A stretch of DNA of 23,164 nt, taken from Pseudomonadota bacterium. Lineage in GTDB: Bacteria; Bdellovibrionota_C; UBA2361; OMIW01. Shown here in pieces: positions 3,525-13,211 of this stretch. Position numbers and translations under genes: made by a program. How positions within the stretch are numbered: the first letter of the stretch is position 1; each line of letters starts with the position of its first letter. Location: positions 1-23,164 of the forward strand of contig OMIW01000179.1 in assembly GCA_900299205.1 (NCBI GenBank). The letters are read 5' to 3'. Below the pieces are notes generated by a model. The model saw nothing but the letters and a program-made list of their open reading frames with translations. It was not told where the DNA came from and did not search any database.

Positions 3525-3815
3525 ATGGTGAGAGTTGAGACGCCCAAAAAAATGGAAAAGCTCCTGGAAGATCCCAATTTCCGTGAAGCATTGCGCCGTG
3601 CTTTGCCAGGTAATGAGGGATTCTCGGTTGGTGATAAAACGTATGAGTTCGTCCCGATGCATGATCTGAGGCGCCATTCATCGTCCAATTCTACAGAGTG
3701 CGATCAATCCGCTCCTCAGGAGCGTAAGGAAGGCTCTGAGTCGGTACCGAAAGCCCTTGTATTTCCAAACCTTCGCGAACTCCTTGGACGAGCCCTCAAT
3801 TCTGGGAAAAAATGA
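3525..3815 (+). CDS. Small hypothetical protein, 96 aa
   Basis: I do not recognise this protein. It is 96 residues, charged, without membrane segments or cysteine pairs (a single Cys near residue 58). The N-terminal 45 residues look helical (MEKLLEDPNFREALRRAL). A Ser/Glu-rich linker (about 50-75) follows, then a second short helical motif, FPNLRELLGRAL. The two helical parts resemble each other in outline (an 'N-F/L-R-E-A/L-L-x-R-A-L' pattern at about 18-27 and 84-92), perhaps a duplicated binding motif. The start is strongly supported by AGGAGG seven bases before ATG. It lies 93 bp after the second GNAT and could be in the same transcript. Confidence 0.65.
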   Translation: MVRVETPKKMEKLLEDPNFREALRRALPGNEGFSVGDKTYEFVPMHDLRRHSSSNSTECDQSAPQERKEGSESVPKALVFPNLRELLGRALNSGKK

Positions 3816-3898: not shown

Positions 3899-4090
3899 AT
3901 GAATCGCTTCGCCTCCGACCCTCCCAAACGACTTACCGAGATCTGGTTAAATCATCGGTTTGTGCTGTCTCATACCCTTCGCAACCACACCCTACGACGA
4001 AATATACTCCGGCACGCAACATTCTCTCTTCAATCTTCGATGAAAGAGGGTCAGGTCTTTGAATACGTTTTGGTGAGTCGTTCATACTAA
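3899..4090 (+). CDS. Possible small protein (63 aa) leading the pseudopilin block
   Basis: A short frame with no recognisable domain. The product is basic, rich in Arg, His and Leu, and has no membrane segment. Its stop overlaps the next ATG by one base (TAATG), the coupling style seen throughout the following genes, and this is the main reason to list it. There is no convincing ribosome-binding site before its ATG. It could be a coupling or leader peptide for the GspH-like gene, or a chance frame in a 5' region. Confidence 0.3.
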   Translation: MNRFASDPPKRLTEIWLNHRFVLSHTLRNHTLRRNILRHATFSLQSSMKEGQVFEYVLVSRSY

Positions 4091-4557
4091 TGCAACCCGA
4101 CATGATTCGAGGTCAATCGTCCATTCAGAAAGGCAACGTACTGACCTTAATAGTCGTAAAGCTGGGGGTCGTTAGTATCGTTGCGTTCACGATATCCGTC
4201 TTCGTGAGATCCGCAGTTATCTCTCGAAGACTTGCTCTTGAGTCTGAGCGATTTGGCCTTTTTCTCGTCGAACTGACCGTGCGATCGGCATCGACAGTCA
4301 AGCCGATTGTTTTATCGCTTTACCAGGGTGACGTTCTAGTGAAAATTGAAGGCGCTCAACCAATGACGTTCATACCAGTCAACGGAGTTACGTTAGGTAT
4401 TCGGGGTGCAAACCCAGAAACGCCGAGAGAAATGCGGCATGGCCGATCTTGCTCACCCACAACATTCCTCCTCAAAGCAGCGGGGACTTCTCTATCGTGT
4501 CTCGCAACACTATCACTCCGATGTCGAGTTAGGATAATTTGCGCGGAGGAAAAATGA
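4090..4557 (+). CDS. GspH/FimT-like minor pseudopilin (divergent)
   Basis: A 155-residue protein with a prepilin-like N terminus. A short basic leader ends in QKG (Gly15), followed by NVLTLIVV and a single hydrophobic helix to about residue 38. After the helix, residues 39-65 (RRLALESERFGLFLVELTVRSA) resemble the FimT/GspH pattern of a long helix running into an 'x-R-S-A' segment, then beta-strand-like sequence. A prepilin peptidase would cut after Gly15. The usual Glu at +5 is replaced by Leu, which is unusual for a non-GspK pilin. The C-terminal 40 residues fit the family poorly. It ends in an ATGA overlap with the next gene. Position first in an H-I-J-K-like order supports the call. Confidence 0.55.
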   Translation: MQPDMIRGQSSIQKGNVLTLIVVKLGVVSIVAFTISVFVRSAVISRRLALESERFGLFLVELTVRSASTVKPIVLSLYQGDVLVKIEGAQPMTFIPVNGVTLGIRGANPETPREMRHGRSCSPTTFLLKAAGTSLSCLATLSLRCRVRIICAEEK

Positions 4558-4829
4558 TTAAGAGAAGGTCGTCATCCCGGGTGGTGGTTCAATCAGGATC
4601 GATACTGATTGAAGTTCTCGCTGGTGCCTCATTGTTGGGCATCTTTCTTACTATATCTTTCACCCTAGCGATCAGAGTGGTTAGTGTATTGACTAAAAAT
4701 CGAGAGGCCCATCGAGATGATGGGACCGTGAGACTCCTTGTTGAAGGTGATTGCTTTTACAGAGACGCCGGGATGGAATCCTGCTCGCGAGGAAAGCGAC
4801 GTCTTTTGGTCGCTTCGGGGGTAGATTGA
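4554..4829 (+). CDS. GspI/PilV-like minor pseudopilin, short
   Basis: A 91-residue protein with the clearest prepilin signal of the block: a basic leader ending SG (Gly15), then SILIEVLAGASLLGIFL, with Glu at position +5 of the mature protein and one N-terminal helix to about residue 40. This is the class III signal cut and N-methylated by prepilin peptidase. The globular part is only about 50 residues, with two cysteines (CFYRDAGMESC) that could form a disulphide. GspI-type pseudopilins are similarly small. The ATG at 4554 has GGAGG just upstream and overlaps the previous stop; the GTG/ATG-type extension to 4539 is unnecessary. The stop overlaps the next start by one base (TGATG). Confidence 0.65.
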   Translation: MIKRRSSSRVVVQSGSILIEVLAGASLLGIFLTISFTLAIRVVSVLTKNREAHRDDGTVRLLVEGDCFYRDAGMESCSRGKRRLLVASGVD

Positions 4830-5788
4830 TGGGTACAATGAGGCTGCAATGTGGACATTCTGATCCAAACTTCATACCTTCAAAGGTCGGCGAATCATTG
4901 AGGACCGTAATTTCTCCGCCTCTCCTATTACGCTCGCGTCGCTGCTCCGAGCGAGGATTGTTACTGTTTTCGGGAATCATCGCCCTCGGTCTCGTAGGGC
5001 TTATACTAAGCTATACGATACCAGCAGTTCATTCACTTATCGGCATGACGATGAGACTACGCCAGGAAGCCCACGCTCAGCGACTTGCGGCCCGGCTATC
5101 CACAATCGCGTCCCAGATTATGCAGGATCTTGACACGCACCGTCTATCGCTTGGGGTTCGGGTACACGCCGTTGGGAGCATTACCTATAAGAGTGGAAGA
5201 CCTCATGAAGTCATGCAGGGCTCTTCAAATATCCGGCCTAACGACTCAAACGCGATCACAGTTGCTGCACTCGATAGCGCAGCCGTTCTCATCCCCCGAA
5301 GTATCACCGCCATCCAGCCGACTAAGAGCTGGTTTGAGGGTTGTGTGATTCCAGGAGGTCAAACTCCGCTGACTCCCCATCGCTCATTCCTGGCAGTATC
5401 GATAGATGGGGTGGCAGAGGTGGTGGCTGATTCATTTGTCTGCCTCTCAAATAAGTGCTGCTCCGGCTACCTTCGCACCCAAGATAGCCTGTTGACGCCA
5501 CCCATTGAGAGTAAACGAATTCTTCTCGCTCTTCCCATCAATCGCCAACTCACCTATTACGTCAGCGAACGAAAGGAACTCCGTCTCTTTCAACAGGTCG
5601 GAGATTCCATGATTGAGAATCAGCCGCTCTTCGCGAATGTCCCTCGGCTCGCTTTTTCAATATCTTTTAATATCACGCCAGGGATCTCAATAACCTCTGA
5701 GGATCTACCCTTAAAAAACTATCCTATCCATCAGTACGGCTCCTTACCCCGTTTACCCGCAGATTATCTGCTTGGTCTTATTCCTTGA
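4829..5788 (+). CDS. GspJ/PilW-like pseudopilin
   Basis: A 319-residue protein with an unusually long leader of 43 residues ending CSERG, followed by LLLFSGIIALGLVGLILSYTIPAVHSL, a single pilin-like helix, and then a long charged helix (MRLRQEAHAQRLAARLSTIASQI). The large C-terminal domain looks beta-rich and contains a cysteine cluster (CLSNKCCSG at about 203-211). Size and domain order match PilW or GspJ proteins. Residue +5 after the proposed cut is Ser, not Glu. The ATG at 4829 overlaps the preceding TGA and has GGGGGT just upstream; ATG 4838 is an alternative. It would sit in the inner membrane or at a pseudopilus tip. Confidence 0.55.
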   Translation: MGTMRLQCGHSDPNFIPSKVGESLRTVISPPLLLRSRRCSERGLLLFSGIIALGLVGLILSYTIPAVHSLIGMTMRLRQEAHAQRLAARLSTIASQIMQDLDTHRLSLGVRVHAVGSITYKSGRPHEVMQGSSNIRPNDSNAITVAALDSAAVLIPRSITAIQPTKSWFEGCVIPGGQTPLTPHRSFLAVSIDGVAEVVADSFVCLSNKCCSGYLRTQDSLLTPPIESKRILLALPINRQLTYYVSERKELRLFQQVGDSMIENQPLFANVPRLAFSISFNITPGISITSEDLPLKNYPIHQYGSLPRLPADYLLGLIP

Positions 5789-5802
5789 TAAGTGAGAATA
5801 GA

Positions 5803-6579
5803 ATGGGATTGAGTGTTATCTCTCATGGATATCGCAGGTATCTCCCAGAAGAAACTCGGGGGGGATTTGCTCTTCTTCCTGTTCTTGTCCTCCTCGTTTT
5901 ACTGAGCAGCATCGCTACTGTTCTCAGTATCGAAGCAATCTCCGCTACACGGACGGCAGCGGCAGCACAGCAGGGACGGCACTTTGATCTTGATGAGCGA
6001 GCCCGCGCTTTTGCAGCTCCACCGAGAGGCGCGAGCACACCCATCTCAATAGAGCCAGAGAGTACGAGCTTCAAAAAAATTTATTTCTCAGAAACCGCAT
6101 CAGGGGTCCAGGGTATTCCCCGATTCTCCCTGATTGATTCAAGCAATGTGACGTGCTCCTTCGGCCAAGGCGACCGATTATCAAATAGGGTCTGCTCAAT
6201 CCTTCCCCCTCGGGAAGGCCCTCTCACGTCCATATCCGGGGGGCTTCACGCAACGTACGTGACAGTTCCCGAGGGGACTCGCAACCTTTATGTGCGTGGA
6301 GACGTTGAGGTTGGCACTCTTACCATACAGGGATCTCATCTCACCCTGAGTGCCCTGGGCAGAATTCGGATAGATGCGGTTGATTCTCCCCGAAATCCAG
6401 CGCCATCACTACTTCTCATCTCCCAACAGCGACAATACCGCCTCCCCTTAGCGCAACCCAACGGAGGAATCGTCACAACTGCAGAATCGAGTATAGCAGT
6501 TACTCTCCTCGATAAAAAAATATTCCCACAAAGAGAGAGCACGTTAATCGGAATGATATTTTCTCACGATCTGAGGTAG
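5803..6579 (+). CDS. GspK/PilX-like pseudopilin
   Basis: A 258-residue protein. The leader ends TRGG (Gly21) and is followed by FALLPVLVLLVLLSSIATVL, the 'G-F-A-L-L' start typical of PilX/GspK, which naturally lack Glu+5. Next comes a short helix with AATRTAAAAQQG-like composition, then a beta-rich C-terminal half. Residues around 160-190 (YVRGDVEVGTLTIQGSHLTL) have the alternating pattern of a small beta-helix. It is shorter than true GspK and lacks its large insertion, so PilX-like is equally possible. The ATG at 5803 follows GTGAGA; a TTG at 5785 overlaps the previous stop and could be a coupled start. A G7 run encodes the cleavage-site glycines. Confidence 0.55.
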   Translation: MGLSVISHGYRRYLPEETRGGFALLPVLVLLVLLSSIATVLSIEAISATRTAAAAQQGRHFDLDERARAFAAPPRGASTPISIEPESTSFKKIYFSETASGVQGIPRFSLIDSSNVTCSFGQGDRLSNRVCSILPPREGPLTSISGGLHATYVTVPEGTRNLYVRGDVEVGTLTIQGSHLTLSALGRIRIDAVDSPRNPAPSLLLISQQRQYRLPLAQPNGGIVTTAESSIAVTLLDKKIFPQRESTLIGMIFSHDLR

Positions 6580-12114: not shown

Positions 12115-13211
12115 ATGAGAAAGCCACGTGTAGGGATTCTGTGTGGAGGTCGCTCTGCTGAACATGAAATATCTCTCTTATCAGCTCGCAATATCGTCGA
12201 TGCGCTGTCGGCTGATTCGTTCGAAGTGATCATCATCGGGATTGATAAGCAAGGGCGATGGTTTCTCACGGATAAAGAGGGTATATCCTCCCCGTCGGTA
12301 GGGTCCTCTCTCTCGGTATTCGTCGGCAAGGGATCGCCTCTCTTGGTGCAACCGGGTGGATGGGTAGATTTAGAAGAATCGGTCTCCGTGACATCCGCCG
12401 CATCGCTTCTCCCCCCCTCGATGTCATATTTCCCGTTCTCCACGGCTCATTCGGGGAGGATGGAGCAACGCAAGGATTACTTCGGATGTTGAACATTCCG
12501 TTTGTAGGCCCGAGCGTTCTCGGCTCAGCCATTGGAATGGACAAAGATATAGCAAAGCGGCTGATGCGTGATGCCGGTATTCCCGTTGCGAAGTTTCTTG
12601 CGATTCCGCATACCCGACACCGATCCGTATCCTTTCAAGAACTCTCTGAGGAGCTTGGTCTTCCCCTCTTCGTTAAACCCGCGAATCTGGGCTCCTCAGT
12701 CGGTGTCGCAAAGGTGACGACCTCTGATGAACTCGATAGGGCACTCGACGATGCGTTCCGCTACGATACGAAGGTACTCATAGAGGAATTCGTCAAAGGT
12801 CGAGAGATTGAGGTGGCTGTACTCGGCAATGAGGACCCAATGGCGTCGGTCCCTGGGGAGATAGTCCCCTCTCACGATTTTTACTCCTACGAGGCCAAAT
12901 ATCTTGATGCTGCGGGTGCTCGCCTCATTATTCCTGCGAATATCGAGCCAGAGGTGACAAGAGAGGCAGAGCGACTCGCGCTTAAAACCTTCTCCTGTCT
13001 CTGTTGCGAGGGTATGGCCCGGGTTGATATGTTCCTAACAGAGCGAGGTTCGCTCTTGGTAAACGAGGTAAACACCATCCCCGGCTTTACCGAAATAAGT
13101 ATGTTTCCAAAGATGTGGGAAGTATCGGGGATACCGTACGGTGCTCTGTTAGAGCGTCTTATTCGGCTTGCTCTCGAGCGCCACGAGCGGGACACTGCGC
13201 TGTGGTCATGA
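12115..13211 (+). CDS. ddl: D-alanine--D-alanine ligase, frame broken in this sequence
   Basis: ATP-grasp enzyme that makes D-Ala-D-Ala for peptidoglycan. The N-terminal part (12115 to about 12417) carries GILCGGRSAEHEIS (7-20), where Glu16 binds the first D-Ala. The rest lies in the -1 frame: DVIFPVLHGSFGED, FVKPANLGSSVGVAKV, the omega-loop region SHDFYSYEAKYL and VNEVNTIPGFTEISMFPKMW. Adding one base to the C7 run at 12411-12417 joins the two frames exactly (LLPP-LDVIFPV) and gives 365 residues, the length of DdlA-type enzymes. As read, translation stops at 12492 after 125 residues. All motifs on both sides are intact, so a sequencing error or recent slippage is likelier than an old pseudogene. 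TGAGGA lies five bases before ATG. Confidence 0.92.

Follow-up and report, generated by a model that had tools for sequence, protein, structure and literature searches.

A block of four overlapping genes at positions 4090-6579 of the window (the whole stretch of 23,164 nucleotides analyzed here) is probably an alternative priming and tip operon for a type IV pilus (T4P), carrying minor-pilin genes in FimT-PilV-PilW-PilX order. We refer to the four genes as H, I, J and K and to the block and its relatives as the cassette. The system is of a known kind, and it is the cassette branch of it that escapes standard protein-family models: the cassette is ordinary in kind, divergent in sequence, and conserved across an uncultured order.

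Four overlapping genes encode proteins with prepilin leaders

An earlier note on this DNA had described four overlapping genes, each with a leader ending in glycine and a single hydrophobic helix. The open reading frames bear this description out, at 155, 91, 319, and 258 or 264 aa:

4090..4557, + strand: H, FimT/GspH-slot minor pilin; 155 aa, ATG start
4519..4542, + strand: basic C-terminal tail of H, RCRVRIIC; counterpart of the SLRGRxRxxC of the cassette family
4554..4829, + strand: I, PilV/GspI-slot minor pilin; 91 aa, ATG start overlapping the H stop
4829..5788, + strand: J, PilW/GspJ-slot minor pilin; 319 aa, ATG start overlapping the I stop by one base
5785..6579, + strand: K, PilX/GspK-slot minor pilin; 264 aa, TTG start overlapping the J stop

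The overlaps between H and I, I and J, and J and K measure 4, 1 and 4 bases, and an alternative ATG at 5803 would give a K of 258 aa. Core minor pilins of T4P have a type III prepilin leader with glycine at position -1, followed by an N-terminal hydrophobic helix. Leader and helix are present in all four subunits, each of which has one strong hydrophobic segment directly after the glycine. The leaders are 15 aa long in both H (QKG^NVLTLIV, mature N-terminus NVLTLIVV) and I (QSG^SILIEVL, mature N-terminus SILIEV), 43 aa in J, where the leader ends in ERG (ERG^LLLFSGI, mature LLLFSG), and 27 or 21 residues in K depending on the start (RGG^FALLPVL, mature FALLPVL). A glutamate at position 5 (Glu5) is expected in every T4P minor-pilin slot but PilX/GspK, and its loss is normally confined to the tip-most subunit. 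Among the window proteins only I has Glu5; it is missing from H, and J and K have Ser5 and Pro5.

Taken singly, the window proteins had no match to a relevant Pfam or NCBIfam model. K matched neither a T2SSK nor a PilX domain, and a phmmer search of the PDB with K returned nothing, while H, I and J each gave PDB profile matches to type IV pilins. AF2 run without an alignment gave J one long N-terminal helix (residues 41-103); at pLDDT 39-40, prediction was poor outside the helix. The C-terminal half of K is strand-rich. A relationship of J to HlyE or other hemolysins was considered and rejected, as the matches were weak helix matches.

The earlier note had also held that no ATPase, secretin or major pilin lies nearby, and tblastn with T4P and type II secretion system (T2SS) core queries indeed found none of the three in the window. 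Elsewhere in the window, a 96-aa open reading frame upstream of the cassette (3525-3815) has no family match, and a D-Ala-D-Ala ligase gene (12115-13211) is seemingly split into overlapping frames at 12115-12492 and 12360-13211, a frameshift either in the gene or in the assembly.

The cassette is conserved across the order

A search of 96 genomes for homologues of J found it in 24 of the 28 genomes of the same order (the present one included), with one match each, and in one genome of a sister order. Around the J matches in same-order genomes the H-I-J-K gene order recurs, with slot sizes of ~140 aa for H, 70-110 aa for I, ~285 aa for J and ~265 aa for K. Since J is single-copy in these 24 genomes and the gene order recurs, the block is not a product of chance. 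No relatives of the cassette were found in viral contigs. At one locus (genome G002, L043:9422-10375) the I and J slots are seemingly fused in a 317-aa open reading frame with two hydrophobic segments.

Among cassette members, the N_methyl model (PF07963) matched 12 of 22 H proteins, 12 of 22 I proteins and 9 of 24 J proteins, the GspH model (PF12019) matched 6 of 22 H proteins, and relatives of the window proteins have textbook prepilin sites. These matches, together with the features conserved in the relatives, indicate that the cassette proteins are type IV pilin-like, and with the recurring gene order they uphold the claim of a minor-pilin H-I-J-K tip module. The residues invariant in the family are P123, S142 and C151 in H, along with a tail of the SLRGRxRxxC type; C172, C210, R252 and an ENQP motif in J; and C124, C137, G192 and S213 in K. 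Glu5 is found in 17/22 H, 18/22 I, 15/24 J and 0/22 K proteins. Because Glu5 is never present in K, as in PilX of Myxococcus xanthus, K is assigned from its sequence to the PilX/GspK slot, though no domain model recognizes it.

In relatives, the ancestral context of the cassette runs TerB, short flagellin, H-I-J-K, RsmB/HslU: TerB-like genes come before the cassette and RsmB or HslU genes after it. This context is lost in the window. Of 24 loci, 16 (from eight families) have a short flagellin gene, encoding 262-298 aa, no more than 5 kb from the cassette; in nine of those 16 the flagellin gene has the same orientation as the cassette and precedes it by 42-118 bases (loci with the flagellin upstream include L033, L042, L043, L045, L048, L050, L051, L052 and L054). 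Genomes having flagellins hold 1-36 such genes. In genome G014 a pilA gene in divergent orientation adjoins the cassette. The surroundings of the cassette showed no PilY1-like gene.

The loss of this neighborhood, and that of Glu5 from H and J, could suggest that the cassette in the window lineage is a decaying or non-functional remnant. We consider this very unlikely, however, as all four frames are open and joined by tight translational overlaps, every residue that is invariant in the relatives, cysteines included, is kept in the window proteins, and some other intact cassettes likewise lack Glu5.

The genome encodes several machines that use pilins

A search of the metagenome-assembled genome (MAG; completeness 89.75%) with PF00437 found six ATPases. 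Loci read by eye comprise a type IVa pilus (T4aP) locus encoding PilT, PilU, PilB, PilC, PilS and PilR (contig C129), a T2SS cluster GspE-F-G-H-I-J (C177) and a Tad pilus (C150). PilA is encoded on C201, and GspK, recognized by its T2SSK domain, on C84, apart from the T2SS cluster. In those genomes of the order that were read, GspK is likewise encoded separately from the T2SS cluster (L106:6352-7434, L107:7858-8919). Whole-MAG N_methyl matches revealed a second FimT-PilV-PilW-PilX-like set near C91:30080-33530, with products of 155, 156, 299 and 542 aa; in genome G003 the second minor-pilin set contains tandem PilX-like genes of 481 and 476 aa (L145:4500-7482). The only secretin found in the MAG adjoins a GspC-like gene (C184), and the platform proteins found are of three types only, GspF, PilC and TadB/C. 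An identity of the cassette products as Tad pseudopilins was rejected, the Tad genes lying elsewhere.

Of the parts that the earlier note proposed to look for in the genome, PilB, GspE and a major pilin (PilA) are encoded; searches of the 89.75% complete MAG gave neither PilD nor a PilQ-type secretin. It had also treated the lack of a prepilin peptidase as grounds for abandoning the pilin reading. That gene is literally absent from the MAG, but we do not count this as a refutation because the MAG is incomplete, the genome has three other systems that use prepilins, and a relative (L070) does have PilD. PilQ, too, is present in relatives.

Relatives place the cassette nearest to type IV pili

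We built profiles from the 22-24 cassette relatives and compared them with the order's other pilin sets. The best match of each cassette slot was the corresponding T4P slot of the C91 type, with scores of 97.2 for H, 95.9 for I, 92.2 for J and 59.5 for K, and the T2SS slots scored lower, with the signal coming mainly from the N-terminal helix. HHalign with the globular parts only detected just H with FimT, at 23%, and did not separate T4P from T2SS; T2SS-versus-T4P controls were equally weak with globular domains alone. The block is thus not too divergent to place in T2SS or T4P, as had been supposed from the single sequences, since the profiles of its relatives put each slot nearest to T4P.

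The same comparison bears on the possibility that the cassette supplies alternative pseudopilins to the T2SS. The slot order and overall architecture are those of T2SS GspH-I-J-K, virtually every genome of the order encodes a T2SS, and minor pilins of T2SS and T4P are able to cross-prime (PMC13249403). Every cassette slot is nonetheless nearer to its T4P than to its T2SS counterpart, and the cassette K lacks the T2SSK domain (PF03934). T2SS ownership is highly improbable because the genome has a separate GspG-H-I-J set plus GspK elsewhere; in relatives, too, the T2SS comes with a GspG-H-I-J set of its own, and any GspK found is canonical and separate.

One family of the order, f11, is informative as to the machine served. 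In its 12 genomes we detected no PilB above the cut-off and no second minor-pilin set of the C91 type, and the cassette occurs in 10 of the 12. The f11 member G010 encodes PilMNOPQ, PilC-PilA, a second PilA-like protein, PilT and PilD at scattered loci, and the cassette is the only non-T2SS minor-pilin set found there, so in f11 the cassette most likely serves the T4P. In the genome under study, no direct physical or genetic link between the cassette and the T4P machine was seen.

T4aP genes are usually distributed among multiple loci (PMC6668835). M. xanthus has three unlinked FimU-PilV-PilW-PilX(-PilY1) sets with one T4aP machine (PMC7541494). Given such precedents, a second, unlinked set is unsurprising. 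The suggestion of an undescribed assembly accordingly finds no support, given a genome with a T4aP machine and the commonness of unlinked or multiple minor-pilin sets. Like M. xanthus clusters 1-3, the cassette has four minor pilins and a PilX slot without Glu5, and it is one of several unlinked sets in a genome with one T4aP machine; unlike them, it has no PilY1 beside it, its I is much shorter, its K has no PilX_N match, and the globular parts are not alignable (PMC7541494). It also resembles the overlapping four-gene core minor-pilin operon of the Vibrio cholerae competence T4aP, fimT-pilW-pilX-pilV (VC0858-VC0861), although the order there is T-W-X-V and a DNA-uptake role, conjectural here, has been shown there (PMC13249403).

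Cassette H proteins share a basic C-terminal tail

An RxR motif occurs within the last 20 residues of 21/22 cassette H proteins, as against 0/8 second-set FimT and 0/16 GspH proteins of the same order. It usually takes the form SLRGRxRxxC, and strict GRxR is found in 10 of the 22. The window H ends in SLRCRVRIIC, with both arginines kept and the glycine replaced. Cassette H proteins have a basic pI of 8-11.6, compared with mostly 4-5 for the C91-type FimT proteins.

In Legionella, FimT binds DNA by way of a GRxR motif at its C-terminus (PMC8897410). The window H resembles it in having a GspH-fold slot and a basic C-terminal tail of the GRxR type, but has CRVR followed by a cysteine, and Legionella FimT is an orphan gene product without the disulfide (PMC8897410). 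Because H bears a FimT-type basic RxR C-terminus that is absent from the lineage's other H proteins, it is possible, judging from sequence, that the cassette tip binds DNA for uptake; we hold this tentatively. RxR tails may be a general feature of the FimT family, and are no proof of DNA binding.

A lone PilB/GspE-like ATPase is widespread in the order

A third PilB/GspE-like ATPase, which we call ATPase X, is a lone protein of ~520 aa; in the contexts that were read, its gene lies next to rppH, recJ or both (L059:9170-10681 in G000:C91, L070:9398-10960, L078:14429-15778 and other loci). The copy in the present genome (G000) has no CxxC pairs. An alternative reading is that the cassette and ATPase X are scattered parts of a dedicated third type IV filament, distinct and order-wide, which would borrow PilC and PilQ, do without a canonical PilB and stand apart from the PilB-driven T4aP, with a possible function in DNA uptake and tip genes ancestrally linked to a short flagellin gene. 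ATPase X is present in ~24 of 28 genomes, f11 genomes without PilB included, keeps its Walker A and B motifs in most members, and branches outside the PilB/GspE clade in a tree with long branches and weak inner support. Its distances covary with those of cassette K (partial r ~0.67, corrected for GspF) as strongly as within operons, and outside f11 it covaries more with cassette K than with GspJ or GspH (0.31 and 0.22). These distances are, however, near saturation, at 3-5 changes per site, and are suggestive only; cassette H shows no covariation with ATPase X, no third platform protein was found in G000, and none of the loci read links ATPase X to pilin genes. Such a third filament therefore seems unlikely to us.

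A probable alternative tip for the type IV pilus

On the preferred reading, an alternative T4P tip operon, a prepilin peptidase would cleave the H, I, J and K products, which would then assemble into a small complex with K outermost and H innermost. This complex would prime the building of a pilus by the T4P machine that the genome's sets share, consisting of the PilC platform, PilA, PilT/PilU, and either PilB or the additional PilB-like ATPase. After priming, the complex would stay at the pilus tip. We infer assembly into such a tip; as one of two T4P-type minor-pilin sets, the cassette would provide an alternative tip, as has been proposed for the three sets of M. xanthus.

Minor pilins determine the contacts that a type IV pilus makes, and their evolution is fast enough that standard family models miss them. 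That a block separate from both the T2SS and the second set could be identified indicates that such sets are recognizable through their relatives. The tail of H gives a concrete question, namely whether a FimT-like basic tail marks a tip for DNA uptake.
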